A DNA stretch of 41,097 nt, taken from Brasilonema sp. UFV-L1 (GTDB lineage: Bacteria > Cyanobacteriota > Cyanobacteriia > Cyanobacteriales > Nostocaceae). The stretch lies in the NCBI RefSeq assembly GCF_012912105.1, contig NZ_QMEA01000049.1, positions 1 through 41,097 of the forward strand. Direction: 5' to 3'. Shown here one piece after another: positions 12,370 to 39,792 of the stretch. Positions within the stretch are counted from its first letter, which is position 1, and every line of letters begins with the position of its first letter. A program made the position numbers and the translations under genes. The notes beneath the pieces were generated by a model, which was given only the letters and a program-made list of their open reading frames with translations, was not told the DNA's origin and did not search any database.

Positions 12370-13347
12370 TTATTGAGCTTGGCAAAGAATTAACCCAAAC
12401 CATTTTTGGGAATCTGTCCAAGTCTTCAAAGGTTTAAGTCCTTGTGCTTCAAGTTGTTTTTGGATGATTGCTAAGTCGAACTTGCGAGAAATTTCGGTGA
12501 GAATGCTTTCTCCAGCTTGAAAGGAAACTTTGAAATTGAGGATATCTAAAGATACCCAATGATTTTCTTGGCAATGGAGATACATTTCAATTTGATTCTC
12601 AGCTTCATTATAAATTGCTTGATGAGTGAAGAAATTGAGATTGAAATCTCCTTGAAAACGCCAATTTAAATGAGAGAGCATATTCAAATTAAAAGCAGCT
12701 GTTACTCCCTGACTGTCATTATAGGCTGCTTCTAAAATTTCTTTGGCTTTTTGCAAATCAATACCGAGTAGAAAGTAATCTCCTGGCTTTAAAGCGTGAG
12801 CAATTTGGCTAAAGAAACGGTTTGATTCCTGTAGGGTAAAATTTCCTATAGAACTTCCCAGAAAAAAAATCATTCGCGTTTGGGAAGAGTTCGATTTGAG
12901 ATGTGCTAAGGCTTGTTCGTAAGTTCCTAGTAATCCCTGAATGGAAAAATCAGGATATTCTTGTTGTAGCTGTAGCACGCTGGTTTTGAGAATTCCGCCA
13001 CTGATATCAATGGGTATATATCGACTGGAATCTGCAATTTTTTGATAAGTATCCAACAAAATACGAGTCTTGGTGGAACTTCCGCTACCTAATTCTACTA
13101 GTTCACAACTGCCTGTGATTTGAGCAATTTCATCAGCGTATTGACTCAAAATCCAGGCTTCTGTTCGTGTTGGATAATATTCGGGTAACTGACAGATTTG
13201 TTCAAAGAGTTTAGAGCCATTTTCATCATAAAAATATTTGGGTGGTAAACTTTTTGGGTTTTGGCTTAATCCTTGAATGACATCTTCACCATCATTGTTT
13301 AACTCTTGATAGTGAGTATCAAGAATTATCAAAGGTTTGATTAGCAT
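12370..13347 (-). CDS. egtD: L-histidine N-alpha-methyltransferase EgtD
   Basis: 325 residues, the expected length. EgtD uses three S-adenosylmethionine molecules to convert histidine to hercynine, the first step of ergothioneine synthesis. Diagnostic features are PPKYFYDENGSKLFEQICQL (about 35-54), then EYYPTRTE (56-63), then the SAM-binding motif VELGSGSSTKT (84-94), FFLGSSIGNF (about 164-173) and LLGIDLQK (about 192-199). It lies 65 bp downstream of egtB on the same strand, so the two are likely co-transcribed, with egtB first. A 94-bp palindromic element follows the stop. No egtC-type amidohydrolase or egtE-type lyase is present in the window. Confidence 0.95.
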   Translation of the reverse strand: MLIKPLIILDTHYQELNNDGEDVIQGLSQNPKSLPPKYFYDENGSKLFEQICQLPEYYPTRTEAWILSQYADEIAQITGSCELVELGSGSSTKTRILLDTYQKIADSSRYIPIDISGGILKTSVLQLQQEYPDFSIQGLLGTYEQALAHLKSNSSQTRMIFFLGSSIGNFTLQESNRFFSQIAHALKPGDYFLLGIDLQKAKEILEAAYNDSQGVTAAFNLNMLSHLNWRFQGDFNLNFFTHQAIYNEAENQIEMYLHCQENHWVSLDILNFKVSFQAGESILTEISRKFDLAIIQKQLEAQGLKPLKTWTDSQKWFGLILCQAQ

Positions 13348-13412
13348 GGTCTAATTTCTTCTATTTTCTGTTTGGTTCTGGAACATCCTGGTGTCGCTGA
13401 ATGAGATAATAG

Positions 13413-14768
13413 TTAAGCTTTCAAATCTTGAGCGATTCTAAAACCAGCGTGTTGATAAAAGTAAGGACGAAACCAGTTACGATAGGTTGGTAATGCCATT
13501 GAACCATTAGTTGCCCAAGAACCGCCGAGCATCATCTGATGTTTACCATCAAAAAAGGGTGCTGCTTGATCTTCGTAAAGTGGATGAGGTTGAAATCCTG
13601 GTAGAGGATTGAAGGTGTCTTTTAGCCATTCCCAGACATTTCCTCTGAGATCATAAAGACCACAACCACTGTTGGCTATTTTAAACATTCCTACTGGACT
13701 GGGGGAAATAAATTGTAAGTTGAGATTATAATTAGTTGATAAGCGCTTATCAACAGACGTTAGTAAGGCTTGATTCCATTCGGCTTCACTCATCAAGCGT
13801 ATTTCTGAGCCTTTGGAGTGACAAAATGCGATCGCCTCGTAGTAGTTGACTTCTACAGGCCAATCTAAGGGTAAGTCTATTTCGTCGAATGTGGCTCGAT
13901 AGCGATAGCCATCCAATCCGGATATCCAGAATTTGGGATGTTGTACGTTGTAGAGTTGTTTCCATGCCCAAGATTCTGCATTCCAGTAGTCTCGATTGTT
14001 ATAGCCGTCTTTGTGAACAAACTCTAGAAATTCTCCGTTAGTGATGAGATACTGACTCGCTAAAAACGGTTTCACTTCAACCGTGCGATCGCCATATTCG
14101 CTATCCCAACCGTAAGTCAGTGAATCTTTGGGTTTTCCCAGTTTCACCACACCACCTGGAATTAAGCGCATTTCATTGTTAGGAACCTCATTATAACTCG
14201 GTGCGTAATTCCACCCTTGAGGACGTTTGAGGCAAGCAACTGGTAATTGACGCAGTAGCACCGAAGAGGTTTCAAAGTGAATGCGACTATGTTCTATTCC
14301 CATCAGCAAACCCCATACTGGATGCTGTTGATGAATAGGCAGATCTAAGCTAGTATTTTGGATAACTTTTGTGATGACTTCTCGTGCCTTGTCACGATAT
14401 TGCCAAACTTTCTCTACATCAGGCCAATTAACCCCTTGCATTGCTGCATCAAGTTCTGTCGGTGTTTCTGGATCAACTCCGATTTCAAATAGAGTTTCGT
14501 ATTGTGAATGAATCCGCTTTTCTATTAAACCAACGCGAATTAACTTGTTGATGAAAAAAACAGCTGAGTGACCAAGATAAAAAATGAGACAGTTTCTTAA
14601 AGGATCAGGGTTAAGATAGAAAGTTTCTTCCCCGACCAAACTTTTCATGAGTATTTCTTCAAGTTCCCAGGAATTTTCAAAGTAGTTGAGCAGGCTTTGT
14701 GAACTGCAATCATCAAGTCTGGGGACTTGCTCAGATGTCAGTTTATTGATCATTGGAACTATACCCAT
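13413..14768 (-). CDS. egtB: Iron-dependent sulfoxide synthase EgtB, OvoA-like type
   Basis: 451 residues. EgtB joins hercynine to a thiol (cysteine or gamma-glutamylcysteine) with O2 to give the sulfoxide intermediate of ergothioneine. The N-terminal DinB-like half supplies a three-histidine iron site: His67 in YLGHSAVFF, and His160 and His164 in GIEHSRIHFET (HxxxHxE). Residues about 200-450 form the formylglycine-generating-enzyme-like domain (LRGNVWEWLKDTFNPLPGF about 374-392, LGGSWAT about 414-420). The wording of the N-terminal half (LIFYLGHSAVFFINKL, MGIEHSRIHFETSSVLLRQLP) is that of the ovothiol enzyme OvoA, but the C-terminal methyltransferase of OvoA is missing. Pairing with egtD makes ergothioneine the likely product. 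An in-frame ATG at codon 6 is an alternative start. Confidence 0.9.
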   Translation of the reverse strand: MGIVPMINKLTSEQVPRLDDCSSQSLLNYFENSWELEEILMKSLVGEETFYLNPDPLRNCLIFYLGHSAVFFINKLIRVGLIEKRIHSQYETLFEIGVDPETPTELDAAMQGVNWPDVEKVWQYRDKAREVITKVIQNTSLDLPIHQQHPVWGLLMGIEHSRIHFETSSVLLRQLPVACLKRPQGWNYAPSYNEVPNNEMRLIPGGVVKLGKPKDSLTYGWDSEYGDRTVEVKPFLASQYLITNGEFLEFVHKDGYNNRDYWNAESWAWKQLYNVQHPKFWISGLDGYRYRATFDEIDLPLDWPVEVNYYEAIAFCHSKGSEIRLMSEAEWNQALLTSVDKRLSTNYNLNLQFISPSPVGMFKIANSGCGLYDLRGNVWEWLKDTFNPLPGFQPHPLYEDQAAPFFDGKHQMMLGGSWATNGSMALPTYRNWFRPYFYQHAGFRIAQDLKA

Positions 14769-17104: not shown

Positions 17105-17307
17105 CTGAGCCAAAAGGGTTTACACTTTATCACTCTATCCCCGTGCGGATGCTCAAACTGAACGTTATAATAGGGGATTTGAGATATTTCATGTTGGTAA
17201 TACCATTTCTTTGTGAGGCTGCGCCAAATTTTATTGACTTCTTCTTTCTTTGTTTCTATGCGCCAAGGGCGCACGCTACGCCCTTTGTGTCCTTATAGCA
17301 ACAAAAA

Positions 17308-17330
17308 ACCTCGGCAGTTTGAACCGAGGT
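17308..17330 (-). terminator. Rho-independent terminator of the 100-residue membrane protein gene
   Basis: ACCTCGG / CCGAGGT stem with a 9-nt loop. On the minus strand it is followed by TTTTTTGTTG. It lies about 45 bp past the stop at 17374, which supports that gene as real. Confidence 0.75.
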
Positions 17331-17373
17331 GATTAGGAGAAGTCCAAATGTCAATGAGTACTGATCCAACGCA

Positions 17374-17676
17374 TCAAAGAGTGAAATTTCCAAATGCATC
17401 AATACCTACAGTTTTTGAGGCGATAATACCAATAAGCACGACCAAACCTAACGCTCTACGAAAATAATTAACGCCTTGAAATAATTCCAGCCATGCCCAA
17501 GTAAACAAAGAGCCATTTGCCAGTACGTCTAACCCTGTGTTAATTTCGCCTGTTGTAAAAACTAGTTTGAGTAAACTAGCTGTGAACCAGACAATAATTG
17601 GTAAATTTGGCATCTGAGCTAAAACAATTTTACCATCGCTATCACGGAAGGTTTTATCAAATAATGTATTTTTCAT
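17374..17676 (-). CDS. Hypothetical two-helix membrane protein
   Basis: 100 residues, family not recognised. Two or three hydrophobic segments are visible: about 22-40 (LPIIVWFTASLLKLVF), a weaker one at 50-65, and about 73-88 (RRALGLVVLIGIIASKTVG). The N-terminus (MKNTLFDKTFRDSDGKIVLAQ) is hydrophilic and probably cytoplasmic. There is a good ATG start and a convincing terminator right after the stop, which is why I accept it. No operon partner: the beta-lactamase-like gene is about 600 bp further on, beyond a palindromic element. Confidence 0.7.
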   Translation of the reverse strand: MKNTLFDKTFRDSDGKIVLAQMPNLPIIVWFTASLLKLVFTTGEINTGLDVLANGSLFTWAWLELFQGVNYFRRALGLVVLIGIIASKTVGIDAFGNFTL

Positions 17677-19483: not shown

Positions 19484-20866
19484 TTAAATTGCACGAGAGA
19501 ATTTTTTCTCTTGTTTTGTTGTATGCATATCAAAGACGACGGCAATGTTTCGTATGAGCAGTCTGCCAATTTCTGTGACAGTGATGTCATTTTCTGATAG
19601 CCTAACCAATCCATCTGACTCTAAACGTTTCAACGTCTCTAATTCCTGAGAGAAATAGTTATTAAAATTGATATGATATTTGTCTTCAATATCTTGCTTA
19701 TAGAGTTGGAAATGACACATGATGTTCATGATGACATCGCGTCTGAGAATATCATCCCAACTGAGTTTGATACCTTTACTAATAGGTAAGATACCTGTAT
19801 CAATTGCTTGGTAATAATCCCTTAATTGCTTGTGGTTTTGGGCGTAGGTATCTTCTAGCATACTGATGGATGTCGCACCAAAACCAAACAGTTCTGCAGC
19901 AAGTTGAGTTGTATAGCCTTGGAAGTTACGTTTGAGAGTGCGATCGCCTTGAGCAATTGCCAATTCATCATTAGATTTGGCAAAATGATCCATACCAATA
20001 AATAAATATTGCTTCTTCGTCAACTCCTCAACTGTCATCTTCAAAATTTCTAACTTTTCCTGCGCTGGTGGTAGTGCTTCTACTGGTATATTTTTTTGCA
20101 CAGCTTTCAGCCAAGGAACATAAGCAAAGTTAAAAACAGCAATCCTGTCTGGGTTTAATTGAATAGTCTTTCTTATCGTCTCCTGAAATGTCTGGACAGT
20201 TTGATAAGGTAGACCATAAATGAGGTCTACATTCACGCTTTCAAACTTCGCCTCTCTAATCGCGTTCATCACGTCAAACAGCATTTCTTCTGGCTGGATG
20301 CGATTCACAGCGACTTGAACTTGACGATTAAAATCTTGGATACCAAAACTAATACGGTTAAACCCGATTTCTCTTAAAAAGAAAATGTAGTTTTTATCGA
20401 TATAGCGGGGATTAATCTCAATAGAGATTTCTGCTGTTTTGCTGAGTGTGAAGTGTTGATTGATATTTTTCCATAAATATTCTACTTGTTCAAGGCTCAA
20501 ATAATTAGGTGTTCCGCCACCCCAGTGAATTTGAACAACTTTCCTATCTGAAGCAATTAAGCTGGCTGTCTTCTGGATATCTCGAACTAGATACTCTACA
20601 TATGGTTGAGCAATATTCTTGTTGTTTGAAATGACTACGTTACAACCACAGAAATAACAAGCGCTTTGGCAAAAGGGTATGTGGAAATACAAAGAAAGGG
20701 GAGTTTTTCTTTGATTTGATGTGGCGATCGCACTTTGAAAGTCTGTGTGAGTAAATGTTTCCTTTAACTCTGTCGCTGGTGGATAGCTAGTGTATCTGGG
20801 TGCGGGAGTATCGTACTTTTTGATAATATCGAAATCAAATTTGACACCAGGAATTTGATAAACCAT
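19484..20866 (-). CDS. hemN: Oxygen-independent coproporphyrinogen III oxidase HemN
   Basis: 460 residues from the ATG at 20866, which has GGAAG eight bases upstream and gives the family's normal length; an ATG at 20926 is in frame without a ribosome-binding site. This radical-SAM enzyme converts coproporphyrinogen III to protoporphyrinogen IX without oxygen. The cluster motif is CQSACYFCGC (Cys66, Cys70, Cys73, plus Cys75), with the family's YFHIPFC lead-in. The GGGTPN motif lies at about 116-121. The N-terminal YDTPAPRYTSYPPATEL block (about 18-34) marks a true HemN rather than the heme-chaperone HemW. It is 263 bp downstream of heme oxygenase on the same strand, the order of the low-oxygen operon of Synechocystis (chlAII-ho2-hemN). 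Confidence 0.93.
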   Translation of the reverse strand: MVYQIPGVKFDFDIIKKYDTPAPRYTSYPPATELKETFTHTDFQSAIATSNQRKTPLSLYFHIPFCQSACYFCGCNVVISNNKNIAQPYVEYLVRDIQKTASLIASDRKVVQIHWGGGTPNYLSLEQVEYLWKNINQHFTLSKTAEISIEINPRYIDKNYIFFLREIGFNRISFGIQDFNRQVQVAVNRIQPEEMLFDVMNAIREAKFESVNVDLIYGLPYQTVQTFQETIRKTIQLNPDRIAVFNFAYVPWLKAVQKNIPVEALPPAQEKLEILKMTVEELTKKQYLFIGMDHFAKSNDELAIAQGDRTLKRNFQGYTTQLAAELFGFGATSISMLEDTYAQNHKQLRDYYQAIDTGILPISKGIKLSWDDILRRDVIMNIMCHFQLYKQDIEDKYHINFNNYFSQELETLKRLESDGLVRLSENDITVTEIGRLLIRNIAVVFDMHTTKQEKKFSRAI

Positions 20867-21048
20867 TGAATTGCTTCCAAAAAAATGAACGTATAGAAGA
20901 GCGTCAGAATCTAACAAATCAATCATCTACTATACGCATCAAAAAATCCGTTCTTCATGCACCTTCATGAATGCAGTCACATCTATCTGTGTAGATTTTA
21001 TTGTTCGCAAAAATCCGATTTTGGGTTATTTATTTTGAATAGCAGATG

Positions 21049-21129: not shown

Positions 21130-21843
21130 CTAAGCTGTACTGAGTTCCGTGTTATCAGTATTATTCGTATTAGTCAGATTATAGAACATGGCTTGACCAA
21201 TTGCTTGGATGAGGGTTTGTTCTAACTCCTGAACCATTTGCATATTGAGTCCAAATGCATGGTTAGCTTCTGCAACAATCTTGTCAGCGGTTGTATCGTC
21301 TATTGATAAAGAATCTAAGACTTGACGATACTTATCCTTAAATGCTTGCTTATCTGGAATTTGCTCAAAATTGTAGAAAGATGTGCCTTCATATCCAGAA
21401 AGTTTCAAGACTGACTGAGCAACTTTTTGCAACATTTGACCACCAGACAAGTCACCCATATAACGAGTATAGGCGTGGCCGATTAATAGCGCAGGTTCCT
21501 TTGCAGATAGTTGATGAATTCGGGCAATGTAAATCTGAGCAGCTTTTGAAGGTGCGATTTTTCCTCTCCAGTCTTGACCGTAGTAAAATTCTAGGTCTTT
21601 TTCCAAGTTAGCTTTGCGATTGAGTTCTCTAAAGTACACAGCACTGATCACAGAATGGTCTTTATGACGCTCTAATGCTGCTTCCAATGCACTGTAGACG
21701 TAATACAAGTTACCTAAAAATTTTGCAAAGCAGTTTCTATCGACAACTCCTTTAACAAAACATTTCATAAATCCCACATTTTCAGCCACTGTGTGAGCCT
21801 GTTGTGTTCCACAGCGAAGTTTTTGGGCTAGATTGCTACTCAT
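21130..21843 (-). CDS. ho: Heme oxygenase
   Basis: 237 residues from the ATG at 21843; the open frame to 21882 adds 13 residues lacking family features. It cleaves heme to biliverdin IX-alpha, CO and iron using ferredoxin, feeding phycobilin synthesis and heme turnover. The proximal heme ligand is His17 in QQAHTVAEN. The distal helix motif is GDLSGGQ (130-136), preceded by HAYTRYM (123-129). Length and motifs match plant/cyanobacterial heme oxygenases. Adjacency to hemN suggests the low-oxygen isoform (HO2), which is an inference. I see no MarR-type ChlR regulator gene in the window. Confidence 0.93.
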   Translation of the reverse strand: MSSNLAQKLRCGTQQAHTVAENVGFMKCFVKGVVDRNCFAKFLGNLYYVYSALEAALERHKDHSVISAVYFRELNRKANLEKDLEFYYGQDWRGKIAPSKAAQIYIARIHQLSAKEPALLIGHAYTRYMGDLSGGQMLQKVAQSVLKLSGYEGTSFYNFEQIPDKQAFKDKYRQVLDSLSIDDTTADKIVAEANHAFGLNMQMVQELEQTLIQAIGQAMFYNLTNTNNTDNTELSTA

Positions 21844-21954
21844 CGTTAAAGTGCTTTTTGTCCAAGTAAAATACGTACCCAAACAAGGGTTTGATTTATT
21901 GACTTTTAGGACTTTCGCAGAATTCCGGGTGTTGAACTATCTCCTCACCTTCTA

Positions 21955-23075: not shown

Positions 23076-23203
23076 TTAGAGGTGTTGCGATCGCGGCTTT
23101 ACTCAGATCGCTTGAGTTTCCACGCAAGAAGAATCTTCAAGATTCAAGAGAAACTCTTTGAAATTGAGGGAGGCATGCACTAATTCAGCAACACTAGATT
23201 TTG

Positions 23204-24550
23204 TTAAGTGTTCAACCGAATTACCCGACTTTCTGCATTACCATCTACAGTCAACCTGTAAATAAAGATTCCAGGTGGTAAAGATTCCCCCGCATCATTT
23301 TTACCGTCCCAGACAACTGATTTTTGACCAGCACTGGGATTAATTTCATCAACCAGTTTGCGAACATAAGCACCAAACTGATTCCAAATATGGATTGTGA
23401 CTTTTTGGGCATTCTCCGGTAACGTGTACTCGATCTTCACTGATTTCTCAAACTGCGCTGGCGCGTTTGTTGTCAGAAATCTTAAAGGTGCAACCCTCTC
23501 CAGCAGAGGGGCTGTTACTGGTGCAGCAGAATACTTGTAAACAGTCTTGCCTGAAGCATAACCGACAGTCACGGGATTACCAAAAAATCGGAAGCGATTG
23601 ATAAATTGTCCGATGTGATTGGCATCTTCCCAGTTTTTGCCTCCGTCGTTTGTTTGGCTGCTGAAACCAGTGGGGGCTTGTGGGAAGTTATAGCCCCATC
23701 CACCTACCCAGCCGAGGTTCTCATCTACGAAACCAACCCCTTCAAGATTTACATTCTCTTGAGGATCGTTTATGCGGAGTCTCGTCCAGGTTTTTCCGCC
23801 ATCTGTTGTCTTGAGAATTGCGCCTTGATTGAAATTTTCCAGAGAGACAAAACCAACTTTTTCATTGAGAAACTGAATTTTCCAACCCCATTCTCCTAAC
23901 GGAAAAGAGGAACTAATATCGGCGACTCGGTTTACCCAGGTTTTTCCCCCATCTTCTGTATAGAGAACCACTGGAATGACATCATCGCGACTGGGATTAG
24001 TAATACTCTTGTCCGCTTTGCCACCGACAACCCAACCACGATCCTCATTAATGAAATAGTTATCAATCAAAATTGTGGCATATTCGCTCATATCCCATGC
24101 AGTCCAAGTTGCCCCACCATCGACAGTTTTCATCATGCGAGGAGGAATATCAGCAGGATTATTGGTACCAGAAGCGTAAATAACCGATTTGTTGACCACC
24201 GAAAGTCCACAAATTTTGACCGGAGCGTTTTCAGGGAGATTCTCTACAATAGTCCAAGTCTCTCCTCCATCAGTTGTGTGATACAGGCGTTGCTCTTCAG
24301 ATACTGTTCCAACCCAACCATTTAAGGGGGTCGAGAAACCAACACACCTCAAATAAACTGGTCGCCCGTTAACAATAGGTGTTTGAAATTGCTGCTCCCA
24401 AGTATTGCCACCATCGGTAGTTTTGATGATTTGACCATTACTATTAACAGCCCAGCCTACCATCGGATCGATAAACCAAATATCATCAGTTCTTGAACTA
24501 GCGATTGGTGCATTTGTAGGAGACCATTGTAGGTTTGAAGAATTTGTCAT
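23204..24550 (-). CDS. Asp-box (BNR) beta-propeller with FlgD-like C-terminal domain
   Basis: 448 residues from the ATG at 24550; a TTG at 24556 is an alternative, with AAGGA upstream of both. The first 350 or so residues are a Ycf48/sortilin-like propeller with six Asp-box motifs (DGGNTW, DGGETW, DGGATW, DGGKTW twice, DGGKNW), each followed by blade strands such as GWAVNSNGQIIKTT. The tail (about 365-448) is a FlgD-like Ig domain: VKIEYTLPENAQKVTIHIWN and later WDGKNDAGESLPPGIFIYRL. Such tails usually sit on secreted proteins, yet no signal peptide is seen. Unlike Ycf48 it lacks a lipoprotein signal, so a photosystem role is unlikely. It is the last gene of the same-strand cluster with the ferritin-like and metzincin-like proteins. 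Confidence 0.85.
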   Translation of the reverse strand: MTNSSNLQWSPTNAPIASSRTDDIWFIDPMVGWAVNSNGQIIKTTDGGNTWEQQFQTPIVNGRPVYLRCVGFSTPLNGWVGTVSEEQRLYHTTDGGETWTIVENLPENAPVKICGLSVVNKSVIYASGTNNPADIPPRMMKTVDGGATWTAWDMSEYATILIDNYFINEDRGWVVGGKADKSITNPSRDDVIPVVLYTEDGGKTWVNRVADISSSFPLGEWGWKIQFLNEKVGFVSLENFNQGAILKTTDGGKTWTRLRINDPQENVNLEGVGFVDENLGWVGGWGYNFPQAPTGFSSQTNDGGKNWEDANHIGQFINRFRFFGNPVTVGYASGKTVYKYSAAPVTAPLLERVAPLRFLTTNAPAQFEKSVKIEYTLPENAQKVTIHIWNQFGAYVRKLVDEINPSAGQKSVVWDGKNDAGESLPPGIFIYRLTVDGNAESRVIRLNT

Positions 24551-24639
24551 GACCAATATTTCCTTTTGCTTAGAGATTTGCGATTTGGGATTGTCAAGGA
24601 GAAATTCAAAATTCTCTTAAAAAAGAATCATTCGTCAGA

Positions 24640-24850
24640 ATTCAGGAGCGGAGCAAGGAAAGCGCAGCCTCCGGTCAGAATCAATTGGATGGGGATTTAA
24701 ACCCCAACCAATTGTAGACAACGCCAGATACCTCTGTCGGGAGACACTCATCAAGTACTGGCTCCCGTGTAGACGGTGGGGATGCGCGACCCCATACTCA
24801 TCCGCCAGTCTAAAGAATACCCAACTGAATTCTGGCGACTGACACCTGAG
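24640..24850. repeat. Dispersed intergenic repeat with inverted repeats
   Basis: It contains CAATTGG (24682-24688) paired with CCAATTG (24708-24714), and inside it GGGG with CCCC around ATTTAAA. It is followed by a GC-richer stretch (ACCTCTGTCGGGAGACACTC...). From memory, similar sequence occurs repeatedly in filamentous cyanobacterial genomes; that is not verified here. It separates the ferritin-like gene from the propeller gene. Confidence 0.4.
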
Positions 24851-24862
24851 TTCTTCTGTTAA

Positions 24863-26380
24863 TTACTGAGGAAAATTACTATCTTTCCACTGCTTGAATA
24901 GATTAATTCTTGCCTCTGTCCAAGGACCTTCAGGAAGTAAAGGCATAGACTTAGAGGATACAGAGTCTAAAATCGCATCTGCATTATTTTTCACCTCATC
25001 ATAAACCCCAAGATTGAGGCGAAATGTCGGAATTGATTTCATATGATCTACATCCATCGGTGAGAATAATTGGGAGATGCCATTCGTCCAAGTTTCTCCA
25101 TTAGGTTCAAGGGAAATAGTATGAGCGATGTTTTTCAGTGTTGCCGATACCTCTGTTAAAGCTTGGCGCAACTGAGGATAGGATTGAGTTCTAGAATCGT
25201 TAATCAGCGCGTCACCAGCTTCGCCAATTTCTTGTAGTCTCTCTTGGAAAAAGATCCAAGCACTGCTCATCTGGGGAAGTAATTGAACATCTGCATAGAC
25301 TTCAAAACTTGGTCCTGCGTTCATACCTGGAAATCCTTCGCCTGCTGGCAAACGAGTGATTGCTTTAGCTAAGGGAGAAACGCCAAAAGGCATGAGGTTA
25401 ATAAACGCACTCTTGAGAATATACATTTGTTCTTCATTCTCCTCAGTGTGAGCAAAGAAGCGGAGGAGAATTTGCAGCATAACTTCATAAAGAGCAACGA
25501 AGATCTCAACTACATCCCGACTCAAGGTATCAGTAATGATGTTGGCACCACGAGTTGTATTATCTTGTTGAAGACTTAACAGTGGATTTTCAATAACAGG
25601 ACGGGCAGGTTGAAAACTAGGATCGCTCGCCAATTCTGCTAAATACTCTTCGCGAATTTTGGTAAATTTAGCAAAATGACTGTCATCTCTCTGGGTTGGA
25701 GAACCTTCGCCCTGTACGATAATTAGATTGATCGCTTTTATTGCTGAATCCAAGTCTGTAACCTGGATCATCTCTCTAAAAATCCCAGTTGCTTGAGCTG
25801 AGGGCGGCCCAATAAATAGTTTTTGACCGATAGTTTGAAAGCCTTGGCGGATTAGTCCGTAGAGTTCTCCAATGGTGTTATACTCAAGTTTTCTCGGAAC
25901 TAATGGTTGTGGTAGTACTGCCAGAAGTCTTAGCAATTCTTCATCTCTGATTCTCTGACAAAACTGAGTCCAATTTCCTTTTTGTTCCTCAGTATCAAAG
26001 TTATTTGGCAATTCAAAACAAATATAGCGGTTCAGCGTAGTTTCATTGAAAGGCGCTAGTTTGAATTGAAGTTTTAAAGATGTATAGGTTTTAGCCTGAG
26101 GAAAATTTGCACGTCGAAAATATGGTGCTCCTCCTATGGCTGTAAGCAGATTGCTAGCCAGTGCTAGATGCAGCATTTCCTGTACGGCAATACCATTAAT
26201 TGTTCGCCGCCACCTATTCATCTTATTTAATTGAGCTTGAGAAACTCCTTCATTTGTAGATTCTTTTAAACTAAAGGCAGTAAAAAGATACTGGCAGGCA
26301 AGAGAATGTTCCAATTCTGCTGCTTGGGAGAGAAGATAAAGTAAGTCTTCTCTGGTTTTGACTTGATTGTCTATACTCAT
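24863..26380 (-). CDS. Ferritin-like protein of the VioB/iminophenyl-pyruvate dimer synthase type
   Basis: 505 residues, no signal peptide. The N-terminal helix pair TREDLLYLLSQAAELEHSLA (about 9-28) and INGIAVQEMLHLALASNLLT (about 61-80) carries the E..EH and ExxH pattern (Glu22, Glu24/His25, Glu68, His71) expected for a diiron ferritin-like fold. This domain is found in VioB and RebD, which couple tryptophan-derived iminopyruvates during violacein and rebeccamycin synthesis. Here it stands alone, without a partner amino-acid oxidase of VioA type. The C-terminal half (about 275-505) has a second helical region (VEIFVALYEVMLQILLRFFA). The substrate is unknown; the VioB reaction should not be assumed. 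It is 151 bp downstream of the metzincin-like gene. Confidence 0.8.
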   Translation of the reverse strand: MSIDNQVKTREDLLYLLSQAAELEHSLACQYLFTAFSLKESTNEGVSQAQLNKMNRWRRTINGIAVQEMLHLALASNLLTAIGGAPYFRRANFPQAKTYTSLKLQFKLAPFNETTLNRYICFELPNNFDTEEQKGNWTQFCQRIRDEELLRLLAVLPQPLVPRKLEYNTIGELYGLIRQGFQTIGQKLFIGPPSAQATGIFREMIQVTDLDSAIKAINLIIVQGEGSPTQRDDSHFAKFTKIREEYLAELASDPSFQPARPVIENPLLSLQQDNTTRGANIITDTLSRDVVEIFVALYEVMLQILLRFFAHTEENEEQMYILKSAFINLMPFGVSPLAKAITRLPAGEGFPGMNAGPSFEVYADVQLLPQMSSAWIFFQERLQEIGEAGDALINDSRTQSYPQLRQALTEVSATLKNIAHTISLEPNGETWTNGISQLFSPMDVDHMKSIPTFRLNLGVYDEVKNNADAILDSVSSKSMPLLPEGPWTEARINLFKQWKDSNFPQ

Positions 26381-26411
26381 ATGGAGTAATAGTTGAAGAA
26401 GGAATGGGTAG

Positions 26412-26452
26412 TGGGTAATTGTATGTAATCGTATGCAATTAACAATTACCCA
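26412..26452. repeat. 11-bp inverted repeat in the cluster
   Basis: TGGGTAATTGT (26412-26422) and ACAATTACCCA (26442-26452), perfect, 19-nt loop. It lies between the metzincin-like and ferritin-like genes and belongs to the GGGTAATTG type of short cyanobacterial repeat. No T-run, so any termination would be partial. Confidence 0.55.
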
Positions 26453-26531
26453 TTACGAACCAACTATTGAGATCTTTCTTAAACAGATTTAAGATTAGGA
26501 TGCTAATCCGTAAGACTTGGCTAAATAATCG

Positions 26532-28556
26532 TTAATGCTTATAAGCATCACGTCGCTCCTTGATAGCGTGTAACACTCGGTTGGTTACATTTCGAGCTGA
26601 CAGGGTTTGCAGCAACTCATTTTGAACATCAACAGCACCTTGCACATCCCCAAGTTTTAGCAACCAGTCGCTAAAGCGGTCTACATAGTACTTGTAGTCA
26701 ATATGTCCAAGAGATTTAGCAGCCATTTTTGGCTGACTAGTTAGAGCCGCTGCAAACTCCTGACGTGCTTCCTCAACATTGGGAGAAATCACCTTAATTT
26801 TGGGATGATTGGGATCGTCTAAGTCTAAGGTTTTGTATTCTTGTGCCATTGTGCTGGCTAGAGCAACCTCGGCATGGAAAGCAACTGAGCGATCGCTCAA
26901 TTTTGTTGATACTTCCCTAAGAGTGTCGTTGCCTTTAGTCAGCGCCTTACTCCCATCAAATGTCAGAATACGTCCAACATCTTCAGAGAAAAAGTCCTGC
27001 GCTAGAAACTCTTCATCGTAACCCCGTGGCGGCGCAATACGCAACCTCAGCGGGTTGGAAACCAAGTCTTCTTCGGTATCCTCCATGTGTAGGGCTACTT
27101 GAATAGTATAGTAACCAGGTTCGGCAATTTCCCAACCACCCTTACCCACAGAAGCAAATAGGGACTCATATGTTGATTCTCCAGGCATCAAAACACGGAG
27201 TTGGGTTTTCCAGCAATACTGAGCATAGGGAGAGAATTGACGAGCGGGTTTTCCATCTTTCTTGATAATCACAATCATGTGATCGAGTTCTGACAGGAGT
27301 TTGTCACTAATCAGCTTAGGTTGAGATGAAATATTAGTTAGCTTCAACTCCAAGACCACTGGCTCTAGAAACTCGAATAGAGCTTGCTGACGATTAACAC
27401 GCAATTCCAACTTGATTGACGGTTCACCAGACAGGTTGAGCTGCTCAAAAGCGTGATCGTCAAACCAATTAGCATTTCCTTGCTGCACGAACTGGAAAGG
27501 AGCGTGTCGCATAAACAGCAGTTCTTGATCGCTGAACCGAAACTCAAAATCGCTGAAAAATGCCGTTTGATCGCCCGATACGTTGAACGGATAATTCATG
27601 AAACTCCGAGCTTCCGGCTCGTTAGTCAAAGGAATCCAAGATGTTCCCCACGACGTTGGATGCTGTTTTTGCCAAGAGTGAGCTAGGTTGAATGCGTGTC
27701 CCATTTCATGAACAGCAGTCCAAAAACGCATCCGATTCACCCATGCATCTGGAGCAAGGTCACCTGCTGGTGGCTGCGCAATGAAAGTTTTGTAAAAGAG
27801 TGCAGTTCCTTGCCTGTGATTGGGACCAACGTCATCAAACATGATCCCACCCAAGTCTTCCCCCTGTTCATGGATAGATGCAAATAGAACCCACATTGAC
27901 CATTGAGGTCTATCTACAAATCGTGACCAATGGATTTGCATGGCATCATGCATTTCATTGTCGCTCCATCTTGCTTCTGCTCCTGGCGGTAGTCCGGCGA
28001 TCGCATTATCTCCCTCTGATTTAGTGACGGCAAAGCCAGTTCGCTGGAACACCGTCTCAATGGAGAGCGTTTCCTGAAACACTGTTCCAGGTCGGTTGGG
28101 ATGAGCGTAAGTGTCAATTGCAGTTACTGGTGTGATGCCTTCCTCATAGTCGAACTCAAACTCTACCTCGTGAAAGTAAGACGATTTGTACTTATAATTT
28201 ACAGTCTTATTTAATACGTCTACAACCGAAAAAGTAACTGTAGCACCGCGCTGGTCGGGAAACTGACTACGTTGCACCTCAATATTGACGTTTGTGTAGG
28301 GGAAAGAAGCTGTGTCTCCATCCTTGTACCAAATCTCACCAGTCCACGAATTTAAGCTAGTATTGGTGAGATTAGCAATCCAATGGACTCTGGAGGCGAT
28401 CGAAAAGGAAAACGTACCACTCGCTCTCATAAGTGGATAGCGTCCATCCACATCCAATCGCAACTCTTGGGAAGATGCTGGTTGCGGGATGGGAGTGGGG
28501 TTGGGAAGATTTATCTCATTCCTCAACTCATAAAGACCACTCACTAATTCATCCAT
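26532..28556 (-). CDS. Metzincin-like zinc metalloprotease with beta-sandwich tail
   Basis: 674 residues, family not recognised by name. The active site is AVHEMGHAFNLAHSW: His283, Glu284, His287 and third ligand His293, the HExxHxxxxxH metzincin pattern, followed by a likely Met-turn SFMNYP (Met320). Residues about 30-140 are beta-rich (FSFSIASRVHWIANLTNTSL) and may be a non-catalytic domain. About 375-510 looks like an Ig-type domain (VVLELKLTNISSQPKLISDK, then YYTIQVALHMED). The last 150 residues are helical. There is no signal peptide or membrane helix, unusual for a metzincin. It starts 21 bp after the stop of the 100-residue gene and is probably co-transcribed with it. Confidence 0.8.
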   Translation of the reverse strand: MDELVSGLYELRNEINLPNPTPIPQPASSQELRLDVDGRYPLMRASGTFSFSIASRVHWIANLTNTSLNSWTGEIWYKDGDTASFPYTNVNIEVQRSQFPDQRGATVTFSVVDVLNKTVNYKYKSSYFHEVEFEFDYEEGITPVTAIDTYAHPNRPGTVFQETLSIETVFQRTGFAVTKSEGDNAIAGLPPGAEARWSDNEMHDAMQIHWSRFVDRPQWSMWVLFASIHEQGEDLGGIMFDDVGPNHRQGTALFYKTFIAQPPAGDLAPDAWVNRMRFWTAVHEMGHAFNLAHSWQKQHPTSWGTSWIPLTNEPEARSFMNYPFNVSGDQTAFFSDFEFRFSDQELLFMRHAPFQFVQQGNANWFDDHAFEQLNLSGEPSIKLELRVNRQQALFEFLEPVVLELKLTNISSQPKLISDKLLSELDHMIVIIKKDGKPARQFSPYAQYCWKTQLRVLMPGESTYESLFASVGKGGWEIAEPGYYTIQVALHMEDTEEDLVSNPLRLRIAPPRGYDEEFLAQDFFSEDVGRILTFDGSKALTKGNDTLREVSTKLSDRSVAFHAEVALASTMAQEYKTLDLDDPNHPKIKVISPNVEEARQEFAAALTSQPKMAAKSLGHIDYKYYVDRFSDWLLKLGDVQGAVDVQNELLQTLSARNVTNRVLHAIKERRDAYKH

Positions 28557-28577
28557 TTGAATTAACTCCTTTAAATT

Positions 28578-28880
28578 TCATAAGTATCTAAATCGCTGGT
28601 TTGACACATGGAAAACGATCTTGTCATCAGCAGTTATCGAAACCCCCAAATAGGTCGGAGCAGAGATTTCTAGAACAGTAGATTGCGCTAGCTTTTTATT
28701 TGGCAGCGTCACCTTCACATTGACCAAGCCTTTTTGAACATTCGTTTCAAAAGAAGCTGCGAGTCCAATTTGAAATCTCGTTTTCACTTGCGATTCATGA
28801 AATGCTTCTTCACCATTGACTTGAATGATGACCTCATCATTTAAAAAACCATCTTGCAAAGCAATATGAAGTAAGATCAT
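28578..28880 (-). CDS. Small hypothetical beta-rich protein
   Basis: 100 residues, family not recognised. The sequence alternates hydrophobic and polar residues through much of its length (LNDEVIIQVNGEEAFHE, LVNVKVTLPNK, VLEISAPTYLGVSITADDKIVF), suggesting a small beta-sandwich. No signal peptide, no cysteines. Tight spacing to its neighbours (15 bp upstream, 21 bp downstream) places it in one transcript with the metzincin-like gene; a partner or inhibitor role would be inference. Confidence 0.7.
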   Translation of the reverse strand: MILLHIALQDGFLNDEVIIQVNGEEAFHESQVKTRFQIGLAASFETNVQKGLVNVKVTLPNKKLAQSTVLEISAPTYLGVSITADDKIVFHVSNQRFRYL

Positions 28881-28895
28881 TAGACTTCTAGCTGG

Positions 28896-29267
28896 TTAAG
28901 GAGGAGTCGCTACCATCCTGAACACTTCTTGAGCGATTTGCTCTCCAGACCGTGCTCTCACGGCAGGCATCCGTAATGGCGCGCTACTGATTTCACGCAA
29001 CACTTGCAAACGATATTCGCTTGCTGCGATACGCTCTGTGTCAAGCCAGAGGCTTATCGCATTACCGAAGAAAGGCAGAGGGCACAGGGTTGGGCACTCC
29101 CCTTGGACAAAAATGGACAACCCTTGTATTTTTGCGGCATGTCTTATGCCTGCGCTTACGCCGCGTAGGCGTGGAGGAGATACGGACACGCACTCGCGTT
29201 CGCCCTTACGTACTTCTGCCTTTTCATCGAGCAAACCATTCACAGCATTGTTGTTTGCAGCGTTCAT
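28896..29267 (-). CDS. Hypothetical protein, probably disrupted by repeat DNA
   Basis: 123 residues open, but the composition is uneven. The start (MNAANNNAVNGLLDEKAEV) and the end (SEYRLQVLREISSAPLRMP and AVRARSGEQIAQEVFRM, about 83-118) look like ordinary protein. The middle (about 20-80, RKGERECVSVSPPRLRGVSA... and GECPTLCPLPFFGN) is arginine-, cysteine- and proline-rich and corresponds to GC-rich DNA with CGCGTAGGCGTGG and a GACAAAAATGGACA motif that recurs at the window end. The likely story is a small gene with a repeat inserted in frame. It is the first gene of the same-strand cluster, 15 bp before the next. Confidence 0.45.
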   Translation of the reverse strand: MNAANNNAVNGLLDEKAEVRKGERECVSVSPPRLRGVSAGIRHAAKIQGLSIFVQGECPTLCPLPFFGNAISLWLDTERIAASEYRLQVLREISSAPLRMPAVRARSGEQIAQEVFRMVATPP

Positions 29268-33750: not shown

Positions 33751-34827
33751 ATGGCTAAGTCTCTTCAAACCCCGGAGCCAGAGTTGCAAAAGCCTGGTGT
33801 GAAAGCACCTGTGCAAGAAACATTGTTAACGCCCAGGTTTTACACCACTAACTTTGACGCTGTCGCGCAGTTGGACATTTCAGCGCATGAAGCGCAGTTG
33901 AGAGCGATTGTGGATGAACTGCGGGCTGATTATAACCGCCATCACTTCGTACGTGATTCTGAGTTTGGGCAAAGTTGGGAACAGATTGATGGGGAAACGC
34001 GCCGCGCTTTTATTGATTTCTTAGAACGCTCGTGTACTTCAGAGTTTTCTGGGTTTCTTTTGTTCAAAGAGTTATCGCGCAAACTCAAAGAGCGAAATCC
34101 TCTTTTAGCAGACGCTTTTAATTTTATGGCGCGGGATGAAGCACGTCATGCTGGGTTTCTGAATAAAGCAATGGGGGATTTTAATCTCTCGCTGGATTTG
34201 GGCTATCTCACTAGGAATCGTACCTACACCTTTTTTCCAGCAGAGTGGGTTATCTATACAGTTTACCTCTCTGAGAAAATTGGCTACTGGCGCTACATTA
34301 TTATGTTCCGTCACCTAGAGAAACATCCAGAGTTGAAATTCTATCCTCTGTTTGGCTATTTCGAGAGTTGGTGTCAGGATGAGAATCGACATGGAGATTT
34401 CTTTAAGGCGCTGTTGCGATCGCAACCCCAACTGTGGAACAATTGGAAAGCGCGTTTATGGGTGAGGTTTTTCCTGCTGTCTGTGTTTGCGACTCATACT
34501 TTGACTGTGCTGGAGAGGGCGTCATTTTATCGTTCTATTGGCATTAATCCGTACGAGTACAATATCCAAGTCATCGAGAAGACGAATGAAACTGCAGCAC
34601 GGGCATTTCCTGTGATACTGAATACAGAACACCCAGAATTTTTCCGTCGGCTGGAAGAGTGCTCGGATATTAATCTCAAGCTGACAGAGATTAACGACAG
34701 CAATAGTCCAAAGATTGTCAAGTTCTTGCGAAAATTACCCTTGATACTTTCAATCATCGGGCATTTGTTACGGCTTTACTTTATTAAGCCGATTGATGCT
34801 GAGGTATCTCGCCAAGCAGTTTGCTGA
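33751..34827 (+). CDS. acsF: Mg-protoporphyrin IX monomethyl ester oxidative cyclase AcsF
   Basis: 358 residues, full family length. This diiron, O2-dependent membrane-associated enzyme closes the isocyclic ring to make divinyl protochlorophyllide in chlorophyll synthesis. Iron ligands are visible as Glu98 in CTSEFSGF, the first ExxH in ARDEARHAGF (Glu130, His133), and the second in QDENRHGDFF (Glu211, His214). Cyanobacteria often have two copies, one expressed at low oxygen (ChlAII). The presence of heme oxygenase and hemN 12 kb away makes the low-oxygen form plausible, but sequence alone does not prove it. No Ycf54 gene is nearby. A strong hairpin follows the stop. Confidence 0.95.
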   Translation: MAKSLQTPEPELQKPGVKAPVQETLLTPRFYTTNFDAVAQLDISAHEAQLRAIVDELRADYNRHHFVRDSEFGQSWEQIDGETRRAFIDFLERSCTSEFSGFLLFKELSRKLKERNPLLADAFNFMARDEARHAGFLNKAMGDFNLSLDLGYLTRNRTYTFFPAEWVIYTVYLSEKIGYWRYIIMFRHLEKHPELKFYPLFGYFESWCQDENRHGDFFKALLRSQPQLWNNWKARLWVRFFLLSVFATHTLTVLERASFYRSIGINPYEYNIQVIEKTNETAARAFPVILNTEHPEFFRRLEECSDINLKLTEINDSNSPKIVKFLRKLPLILSIIGHLLRLYFIKPIDAEVSRQAVC

Positions 34828-38203: not shown

Positions 38204-38430
38204 TAAACTTTGTATATAAAATATTTCATTATAGAGGCTAAAACCTAAGATTGCAGTGATTATCCGGTGATCGTTTAGAAACTTAATATATTGAATTCAC
38301 ACAAAAGTTAGTGAAAAATGTTCGGATGAATCAAAGATTCAGCGAAGATGACTCTTGCGACATTTCTGAATCTCGAAAATCTATAATTTTCAGTAGTGCA
38401 ATTCGCTATCGTATTCTGTCTGTAGTTACC

Positions 38431-39792
38431 ATGACCACTTCATCCCGTCGCTATCACATCACCACCTTCGGTTGCCAAATGAACAAAGCCGACTCAGAAC
38501 GTATGGCTGGCATCTTAGAAGACATGGGCTTTGAGTGGTCAGAAGACCCAAATCAAGCTTCTTTGATTCTCTACAATACCTGCACTATACGTGATAATGC
38601 TGAGCAAAAAGTCTATTCTTATCTAGGAAGACAAGCAAAGCGCAAGCATGAACAACCAGACCTAACCATCATTGTTTCAGGTTGCGTTGCTCAGCAGGAA
38701 GGAGAAGTACTGTTGCGGCGTGTGCCAGAATTAGATTTGGTGATGGGACCTCAACACACTAACCGCCTGAAAGATTTGCTACAACAAGTTTTTGATGGTA
38801 ACCAAGTTGTCGCCACTGAGCCAGTTCACATTATGGAAGATATCACCAAGCCGCGACGAGATAGTCATGTGAGTGCTTGGGTAAATGTGATTTACGGCTG
38901 TAATGAACGCTGCACTTACTGTGTGGTTCCGAATGTACGGGGTGTTGAGCAATCCCGTACACCGCAAGCAATTCGGGCAGAAATTGAAGAAATTGGGCGG
39001 CTTGGTTATAAAGAAGTTACCTTACTCGGTCAAAATATTGATGCTTACGGGCGAGATTTACCGGGAGTGACGCCTGAAGGTCGCCATCTCCATACTTTGA
39101 CTGATTTACTTTACTATATTCATGATGTGTCGGGAATTGAAAGAATTCGGTTTGCAACTTCTCACCCCCGTTATTTCACAGAAAGACTCATCAAAGCTTG
39201 CGCGGAATTACCCAAGGTGTGTGAACACTTCCACATTCCCTTCCAATCTGGGGACAACGAAGTCCTAAAACGCATGAGTCGGGGTTACACTCACGAGAAA
39301 TATCGCCGGATTATTGATACAATTCGACAGTATATGCCAGATGCGTCAATTAGTGCTGATGCGATTGTCGGTTTTCCAGGGGAGACAGAAGAACAGTTTA
39401 AAAATACTCTCAAATTGGTAGAAGATATTGGTTTTGACCAGTTGAATACAGCAGCGTATTCTCCACGCCCTGGAACACCAGCAGCGATTTGGGATGAGCA
39501 ATTGAGTGAAGAAACTAAGAGCGATCGCCTGCAACAGCTCAATCATCTGGTTGGTACTAAAGCAGCCGAGCGATCGCAGCGTTATATGGGACGCGTTGAA
39601 GAAGTCCTAGTGGAAGACCAAAACCCCAAAGACAAAACTCAAGTGATGGGACGCACACGCGGAAACCGTCTGACTTTCTTTGCTGGTGATATCAATGAAC
39701 TCAAAGGCAAGTTGGTTAAAGTCAAAATTACTGAAGTTCGTGCCTTTAGCTTGACAGGTGAAGTGGAAGTGCGCCAAGCGGTGTCAGTGTAA
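38431..39792 (+). CDS. miaB: tRNA-2-methylthio-N6-dimethylallyladenosine synthase MiaB
   Basis: 453 residues from the ATG at 38431; the frame is open back to 38311 but the added 40 residues do not belong to the family. MiaB adds the methylthio group to i6A37 of tRNAs reading UNN codons. The N-terminal UPF0004 domain binds an auxiliary 4Fe-4S cluster through Cys15 (TFGCQM), Cys51 (YNTCTIR) and Cys85 (SGCVAQ). The radical-SAM cluster is CNERCTYC (Cys157, Cys161, Cys164). A TRAM domain ends the protein (about 380-447, [20 protein letters not shown]). The VxPxVRGxEQSR block after the cluster separates MiaB from RimO. No miaA is adjacent. Confidence 0.95.

Follow-up and report, generated by a model that had tools for sequence, protein, structure and literature searches.

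A block of minus-strand genes in the cyanobacterium Brasilonema sp. UFV-L1 (genome of 8.3 Mb) places a metzincin-like protease, a 100-residue protein, a ferritin-like protein and a β-propeller protein side by side, and it raises the question of what these genes do together. The block lies in contig NZ_QMEA01000049.1, of which the whole analyzed stretch of 41,097 nucleotides is referred to as the window hereafter. We consider that the four genes compose a two-module cassette, in which a protease–inhibitor pair is combined with a ferritin-like oxidase and its propeller to give an offensive or surface oxidation-plus-proteolysis kit, and we give this reading a roughly even chance. The features concerned are the following (S100 is a label for the 100-residue protein, which has no relation to the eukaryotic S100 proteins).

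28578–28880, minus strand: S100, 100-residue single β-sandwich protein, predicted partner or inhibitor of MET (open reading frame, adjacency to MET, structure model)
26532–28556, minus strand: MET, 674-residue metzincin-like metalloprotease (open reading frame, Pfam, invariant residues, structure model)
24863–26380, minus strand: FER, 505-residue VioB-type ferritin-like protein (PF12902; E24, E68xxH71, E225 and H235 conserved)
24866–25099, minus strand: MPW, C-terminal domain of FER of about 78 residues (free-standing rhizobial copies; match to PDB 5yy2)
23204–24556, minus strand: BNR, 450-residue Ycf48-like Asp-box propeller with a FlgD-like immunoglobulin (Ig) tail (PSII_BNR, FlgD_ig)
28896–28963, minus strand: 3′ remnant (last 20 or so codons) of a vanadium-haloperoxidase-like gene (28963 is the limit of DNA homology to Scytonema hyalinum)
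28964–29267, minus strand: rest of a 123-residue frame, not regarded as a gene (no match in Pfam, NCBIfam or relatives)
24590–24850, no strand: dispersed-repeat insertion in the gap between FER and BNR (repeats in its own genome; missing in loci L034 and L035)

The transcription order is S100, MET, FER and BNR, with intergenic gaps of 21, 151 and 306 bp, and the start codon of BNR is TTG, with an ATG two codons downstream. The same four genes are found in identical order in S. hyalinum WJT4-NPBG1 (L035/L037), and comparison with this strain indicates purifying selection on all four (ratio of nonsynonymous to synonymous substitution rates, dN/dS, 0.145–0.285); for the S100 gene against that of Scytonema sp. 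RU_4_4 (L038), the ratio was 0.44, a value based on very few changes. The first-pass annotation had described five minus-strand frames lying in one block. The four frames, their coordinates, spacings and motifs were borne out, and so was the block as a unit, whose order is kept in S. hyalinum and whose pairings are conserved, but the fifth, 123-residue frame (28896–29267) was rejected as a gene. In S. hyalinum, an intact haloperoxidase-like frame (506 residues or less, VCPO_N and PAP2 domains) lies 15 bp upstream of the S100 gene, and the sole match of the 123-residue frame is that of its residues 103–122 to the 3′ end of the haloperoxidase-like gene. We regard this part as a remnant of such a gene; the rest is matchless in the relatives compared and in Pfam and NCBIfam. 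The haloperoxidase gene of L038 has suffered an internal loss of about 1.2 kb, and one or two loss events are both possible because the L038 protease is the nearest to the window MET in the tree. A plasmid of Nostoc sp. UHCC 0302 bears another haloperoxidase relative (37.7%), with a FER-like gene two genes away.

The DNA homology between the window and S. hyalinum covers 23196–24572 and 24862–28963, and the break between the two segments clarifies the larger gap. The gaps of 151 and about 310 bp noticed earlier are both present, and the MET–FER gap of S. hyalinum is similar in size to the former; however, the latter (306 bp) is not ancestral and is mostly an inserted dispersed repeat. The spacing between FER and BNR is about 40 bp in both relatives that have the two genes whole, S. 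hyalinum (L035) and genome G297 (L034), while the window carries extra DNA at 24573–24861 (the alignment breaks at 24572/24862), most of which gave 45 matches in its own genome, itself included and mostly partial.

MET has both sequence features of a metzincin. The extended zinc motif of this group is HExxHxx(G/N)xxH/D, and MET carries its N variant, HEMGHAFNLAH (residues 283–293), followed downstream by a Met-turn, SFMNY (residues 318–322), as the first reading of the sequence had proposed. In an alignment of 26 hand-chosen MET proteins, the window's included, H283, E284, H287, N290 and H293 of the zinc motif and S318, M320, N321 and Y322 of the Met-turn are invariant in all 26, and 36 further positions are invariant beyond H283, E284, H287, N290, H293, M320, N321 and Y322. 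The structure model (mean predicted local distance difference test score, pLDDT, 82.4) suggests an N-terminal β domain (about residues 1–140), a catalytic domain (about 160–370), an Ig-like domain (about 381–507) and a helical C-terminus (about 513–673), the bounds and names being our reading of the predicted secondary structure. MET matches no Pfam family above the cut-off, the best being Reprolysin_4 (21.7 bits against 22); it has no Pfam match to M4 peptidases, nor to the M43 family PF05572 at E up to 1. Against solved structures, its profile gave matches at the motif level only (ADAMTS-4, matrix metalloproteinases, ulilysin and myroilysin; best E 0.048), and a Foldseek search with the whole chain was uninformative, with GH3-type glycosidases at template modeling (TM) scores of 0.11–0.15 and no metzincin among the matches listed. 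The active-site region nevertheless aligned with that of a rhizobial M43 protein at an hhalign probability of 91%, both having N in place of G. With the M43 pappalysins (ulilysin, mirolysin and cytophagalysin), MET shares HExxH, the third histidine and a tyrosine two residues past the Met-turn methionine, which in mirolysin and ulilysin is described as a tyrosine switch (PMC11674741); it differs from them in lacking a PF05572 match and in having the additional N-terminal β, Ig-like and helical domains. MET is most likely a zinc endopeptidase from a metzincin branch that is undescribed, with the M43 pappalysins as the nearest recognizable kin.

Relatives of MET were collected with a single zinc-site peptide pattern from one genome each of 84,980 species. 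The best 80 of 160 and six plasmid loci, together the 86 protease loci used below, come, by the tree labels, from Cyanobacteriota, Pseudomonadota, Actinomycetota, Bacteroidota, Planctomycetota, Acidobacteriota, Spirochaetota, Krumholzibacteriota, Chloroflexota and Myxococcota. Of 292 cyanobacterial genomes, that of the window was the only one in which MET was found, and a single-sequence search agreed with this result. A tree of 63 rows was computed, with support from a quick method and a warning of long branches from the tool. Loci L029 (frameshifted), L051, L061 and L074 (cut off), and L032 and L033 (weak relatives) stand outside it, as do 18 actinobacterial loci (Nonomuraea, Streptomyces and Lentzea) that are similar to kept rows, none of the 18 having an S100 neighbor. 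Two side observations concern these relatives. One is that a single frame of Pseudonocardia (L072, 8582–11983) encodes an M28 peptidase domain followed by MET, and L073 has a frame of like length. Another is that a protein of 139–182 residues lies downstream of the protease in 15 loci, 14 of Actinomycetota and one of Chloroflexota (L079).

The small protein is tied to this protease. The model of S100 is an eight-strand β-sandwich (mean pLDDT 93.4), and no Pfam or NCBIfam family exceeds its threshold. A hidden Markov model (HMM) of its family detected a member next to the MET gene at 30 of the 86 loci, the other 56 being scored as misses: 20 of these members lie upstream of MET and 9 lie downstream in the same orientation, and 1 is on the opposite strand, all within 0.83 kb of MET. 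The pairs span seven phyla (record titles and tree labels) in both gene orders. In the tree, an S100 neighbor accompanies 25 of the 34 rows in the half that includes the window, and 5 of the 29 rows in the other half; because many tree neighbors belong to different phyla, the distribution points to horizontal spread of the pair. Forty MET genomes, hand-picked from the 86 loci as 25 with and 15 without an S100 neighbor, were also searched whole, and the family was present in exactly the 25 with the adjacent copy (the pair loci L025, L029, L045, L062 and L063 belong outside this set). The 27 matches consist of 25 at MET, a second copy in Microvirga (G437) and a partial match in Cyanosarcina (G422), which is located on another contig and is perhaps the missing half of a copy at a contig end. 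In the 292 cyanobacterial genomes, the S100 family occurs once, adjoining MET in the same genome. We take chance to be excluded as the source of this adjacency. The start of S100 resembles a lipoprotein signal, by eye, in L049 and L063 (Bacteroidota) and L088 (Microcoleus). A second common neighbor family (35 loci) was rejected: in the 13 loci inspected, it proved to be a merged set in which regulators, kinases and proteins with repeats were mixed, most of them at a distance of kilobases. No common alternative partner was seen by eye beside MET in 14 loci without S100.

The position of this pair beside the propeller gene provides a clue to its role. BNR matches PSII_BNR (69.2 bits, cut-off 27) and FlgD_ig (49.1 bits, cut-off 27), and six Asp-boxes are recognizable by eye, so that the propeller and FlgD-like tail reported earlier hold. 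It shares the PSII_BNR propeller with the Ycf48/HCF136 photosystem II assembly factors and matches the solved Ycf48 structure (E 2.2e-12); it differs from them in reaching 73.6 bits against the cut-off of 326 of the Ycf48 equivalog NF010237, in its FlgD-like tail, in having no evident signal peptide and in its rhizobial relatives. The relatives were found at 44–54% identity in 10 rhizobial plasmid records and at 26% in two more; six of these 12 records were examined with their neighbors, the rest being four apparent duplicates, judged by identity, and the two 26% matches. Among 386 cyanobacterial genomes, three carry BNR at E ≤ 1e-40.

Six of the 11 BNR loci, namely four rhizobial ones and those of the window and S. 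hyalinum, have a zinc protease with an adjoining protein of about 100 residues, and the protease is not always MET. On plasmid pRL9b4 of R. leguminosarum, a BNR (54%)–ferritin fusion is followed by a protease (28%) and an S100 relative (29%). The protease of this strain, 9B, falls in the other half of the MET tree from the window, and the FER/BNR and MET/S100 modules were joined at least twice, once in the window and S. hyalinum and once on pRL9b4. In Mesorhizobium AR10, BNR is followed in order by an MPW protein, an M4 peptidase and a PF20242 Emfourin (38.7 bits, cut-off 27); in R. ruizarguesonis and R. leguminosarum A1, it is followed by an MPW protein, a methyltransferase, an M43 peptidase and a 109-residue protein. 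The three partner families have no detectable mutual relation, and a relation of S100 to the 109-residue partner of M43 in particular was looked for and not detected. One of the three is known to consist of inhibitors: emfourin binds protealysin 1:1 and inhibits it, its gene is part of the protealysin operon, and the authors of that study liken the pair to antibacterial effector–immunity pairs (PMC9505478). Because M4–Emfourin and M43–109-residue pairs fill the same slot beside BNR, S100 is most likely an inhibitor of MET, emfourin-like in its working though without detectable kinship; this assignment is argued from gene position. The resemblance to protealysin–emfourin lies in a zinc protease without an evident signal peptide, a protein of about 100 residues adjoining it, and the equivalent place of the M4 and Emfourin genes in Mesorhizobium AR10. 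The differences are that MET is of the metzincin type and not M4, that S100 has no detectable Emfourin kinship and that its inhibition is presumed from position.

Two further observations were made around BNR. In G417 (L120, 1118–10357), BNR is located beside genes that we take to resemble the ebo cluster, and a VioB-like pair of 646 and 350 residues lies a few kilobases off on the opposite strand. A protein family with one CxxCH motif (heme c type, by eye) stands beside BNR in several rhizobia: L125 (8644–9984), L124 (8803–9936) and L122 (12619–14028), and its members in L122 and L125 have an exported-looking N-terminus.

The other half of the block is built on FER. It matches PF12902 with 141.3 bits (cut-off 22.3), and E24, E68, H71, E225 and H235 are identical in 12 of 12 aligned ferritin-like sequences (4 of the window type and 8 others), which agrees with the ferritin-like EH/ExxH pattern first noted. 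FER has this domain, with its E, ExxH, E and H, in common with the iminophenylpyruvate dimer synthases VioB, RebD and StaD, but it is half as long and, at 100.4 bits against the cut-off of 1250, about 12 times under the VioB equivalog TIGR04492; VioB function was rejected on this score. Its C-terminal domain, MPW, has the pattern ...DVDHM...V..NA..IL..V.S..MP...GPW...F..W and matches no Pfam model above threshold. Copies of it, as small proteins or as protein ends, are neighbors of BNR in two Mesorhizobium loci and in R. ruizarguesonis, R. leguminosarum A1 and B. elkanii, the BNR frame of the last being broken; Pfam gave no MPW match in the two Mesorhizobium proteins, nor NCBIfam for the free-standing copy of R. 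ruizarguesonis. MPW is adjacent to BNR or one gene away in 7 of the 11 BNR loci examined, and the places where it is not at BNR are the two BNR–ferritin fusions, G417 and the G313 remnant. It also matches the C-terminal region of fungal AsqI (PDB 5yy2, E 1.5e-11), a hemocyanin-like zinc cyclopenase (PMC6053404). The association of propeller and ferritin-like protein goes as far as fusion, since BNR and PF12902 form one protein of about 910 residues in R. leguminosarum 9B and B. barranii. The first-pass annotation had asked whether the homologues might be scattered singly; with this fusion and the 30 paired protease loci, this was not the outcome for either pair.

The FER/BNR half belongs to LodA, tyrosinase and multicopper-oxidase settings. 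Beside BNR or FER in the relatives are found a LodA_N protein (32 bits against a cut-off of 26.3), LodA_C-like proteins (25.6 bits, above the cut-off of 25, and 22.6 and 20.6 bits, below it), radical S-adenosylmethionine (SAM) proteins, LodB/tryptophan-halogenase-like flavoproteins, cytochrome P460 (73.9 bits), haloperoxidase and, by record names, tyrosinase and multicopper oxidase. According to Campillo-Brocal and colleagues, lodA–lodB has ferritin-like genes nearby in fungi, and genes for tyrosinase and multicopper oxidase nearby in Bradyrhizobium; they raised the possibility that LodA, tyrosinase and multicopper oxidase are related in function, and they connected amino acid oxidases that produce H2O2 with antimicrobial action, with biofilm and with competition (PMC4417212); GoxA has a twin-arginine signal (PMC3948610). 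The loci compared here share with those LodA/GoxA–LodB loci PF12902, LodA parts, LodB-like genes, tyrosinase and multicopper oxidase near BNR or FER, whereas the window block is without LodA, and the propeller, protease and S100 do not appear in the parts of PMC4417212 consulted. In the tyrosinase/M4 loci, a family of about 130 residues (54–56% identical; L123, 6987–7388; L125, 15978–16370; L126, 17489–17881) may be the unnamed small gene, 138–142 residues, of the LodA operons in that paper. On the Nostoc sp. UHCC 0302 plasmid (L028, 9001–10635), a natural chimera was observed, of which residues 1–295 are 91% identical to the window FER and the remainder is 28% identical to the Rhizobium LodA_N protein; radical SAM and then a LodA_C–ferritin fusion lie downstream.

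The block moves horizontally as a cassette. The window, G297, S. hyalinum and G313 have the block or parts of it in common, while the immediate flanks differ in the stretches of about 20 kb compared. G297 retains only FER and BNR. In G313 (L036, 8901–10118), a 405-residue in-frame deletion product fuses FER residues 1–134 directly to BNR residues 13–285; it lies about 4 kb from a miaB-type gene, and the miaB segment, present in the window at 38311–39792, is at a different distance and on a different side.

How would such a cassette work? The four genes may be co-transcribed. In the first module, MET would be a zinc endopeptidase without an evident signal peptide, and S100 would bind and inhibit it, keeping the producing cell safe until MET is released or delivered. 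In the second module, FER would act as a dimetal ferritin-like oxidase or oxygenase, which BNR probably helps assemble or hold through the C-terminal domain of FER. The products would act outside the cell or in neighboring cells, where oxidation and proteolysis would reinforce each other in a kit of the LodA/tyrosinase/haloperoxidase kind. No signal peptide is apparent, by eye and without a predictor, at any N-terminus of the block, as had been noted earlier; the non-Sec export that the first-pass annotation proposed as one alternative may apply.

Several results weigh against this reading. The counts of sigma-70-like promoters and terminators in the block are not above those in shuffled sequences, which gives no support to one transcription unit. 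As to the inhibitor, the S100 structure has no confident match in the PDB (best E 1.9e-3, HGSNAT), and S100 was rejected as a homologue of emfourin (PF20242), with no HMM or Pfam match and an hhalign probability of 0.1%. No S100 gene was found beside MET in 56 of the 86 protease loci, some of whose contigs end nearby, and the whole family is absent in 15 of the 15 searched genomes without the neighbor; because of both results, MET does not always need S100. Five of the 11 BNR loci (L034, L036, L120, L122 and L124) have no HExxH protein among non-overlapping frames of at least 80 residues, apart from one dissimilar frame of 292 residues in L036. No secretion system was recognized, and MET may be a maturation peptidase instead.

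This last point leads to the main rival, a maturation cassette, which we judge to have perhaps half the likelihood of the two-module kit. MET would trim a leader or a loop, either of FER or of a remote quinoprotein, BNR would be an assembly chaperone, and S100 would itself be cut or would serve as a substrate adaptor; the maturation of the quinoprotein QHNDH includes a protease step, to which that of MET might be likened. Radical SAM, LodA_N, LodA_C-like and flavin adenine dinucleotide (FAD)/LodB-like genes do adjoin the BNR–FER fusion of R. leguminosarum 9B and B. barranii, a further ferritin-like gene of the window genome, its third, adjoins a 475-residue LodA-like and a 382-residue LodB-like gene (BLAST to Rhizobium proteins), and Pfam describes Ycf48 as a photosystem II assembly factor. 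However, in tblastn over the 86 protease loci with window, S. hyalinum and Rhizobium queries (the fused Rhizobium protein stands outside these results), L025 was the sole locus with LodA, radical SAM and flavoprotein matches, and BNR matched there, in L037 and, weakly, in L068, but nowhere else. Nor does a LodA or radical SAM gene adjoin the window block: among the 19 window proteins scanned, block flanks included (33 open frames of at least 100 residues in total), no LodA domain was found, and the radical SAM proteins were just those of HemN and MiaB type. The peptide-modifying system suggested by the first-pass annotation is possible, given the radical SAM, LodA and LodB-like genes beside the Rhizobium version; no modified peptide substrate was seen in the window.

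It is improbable, rather more so than maturation, that two unrelated gene pairs were joined by chance in a genomic island and have no joint function. Each pair is indeed found without the other, G297 having FER and BNR only, and 84 of the 86 protease loci lack a strong BNR match; but both halves are found together again in Rhizobium, where the protease belongs to another branch and BNR–FER is fused, and other protease/partner pairs replace MET and S100 beside BNR. Least probable of all is specialized metabolism, in which FER would be a VioB/RebD-type coupling enzyme and the block would yield a small molecule: PF12902, the 100-bit VioB match and the FER-type C-terminal domain of AsqI, which belongs to the tailoring enzymes in an alkaloid pathway of fungi, speak for this indolocarbazole lead, but the equivalog score falls far short, several relatives lie in LodA, quinoprotein and tyrosinase settings, relatives of VioB size (open frames of about 1100 residues) are separate genes in these genomes, and no amino-acid oxidase adjoins the block, the two window flavoproteins (an FAD_oxidored protein at 102–2324, with a DAO match below cut-off, and a GMC oxidoreductase at 7380–9059) being 14–21 kb off. 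Two further candidates were rejected: viral origin, as the MET peptide patterns are unmatched in viral contigs, and anti-phage defense, as neither the four proteins nor the haloperoxidase relative has a PADLOC match.

Some features of the surrounding window were also observed. The block is located between a HemN-type radical SAM gene (19484–20926) with a heme oxygenase gene (21130–21882) on one side and a rubrerythrin-domain gene (33751–34827), presumably AcsF-like, on the other; HemN, heme oxygenase and AcsF-type genes form a low-oxygen set in cyanobacteria. At 12370–14768, an EgtD-like histidine methyltransferase gene adjoins an FGE-sulfatase-domain gene, which we assume to be EgtB-like, a possible ergothioneine pair. 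The photosynthesis regulatory small RNA PsrR1 (17304–17375, 52.6 bits) was the only Rfam match over the window, so that no known RNA occurs in the gaps of the block.

The block is a protease with a linked partner in an oxidase cluster, built from families without curated models, and in agreement with the first-pass annotation, no description of this gene composition was found among the best matches in the open-access literature. Tentatively, the two-module cassette may be one form of an undescribed mobile system, in which BNR is an assembly or export factor for MPW-linked redox enzymes and is accompanied by an exchangeable protease–antidote cartridge (M4–emfourin, M43–109-residue protein or MET–S100). 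If this is true, the protease family, the inhibitor family and the enzyme-export or assembly partnership would all be new. MET and S100 are two unnamed families, the former present in many phyla, and they now pose one concrete question of inhibition. For loci that combine LodA, ferritin-like, tyrosinase and multicopper oxidase genes, a possible relation in function was pointed out in 2015; they are linked here through a shared propeller gene, and in 6 of the 11 loci with this gene a slot is occupied by a zinc protease and its small partner. The function of these oxidase clusters is thereby open to experiment.

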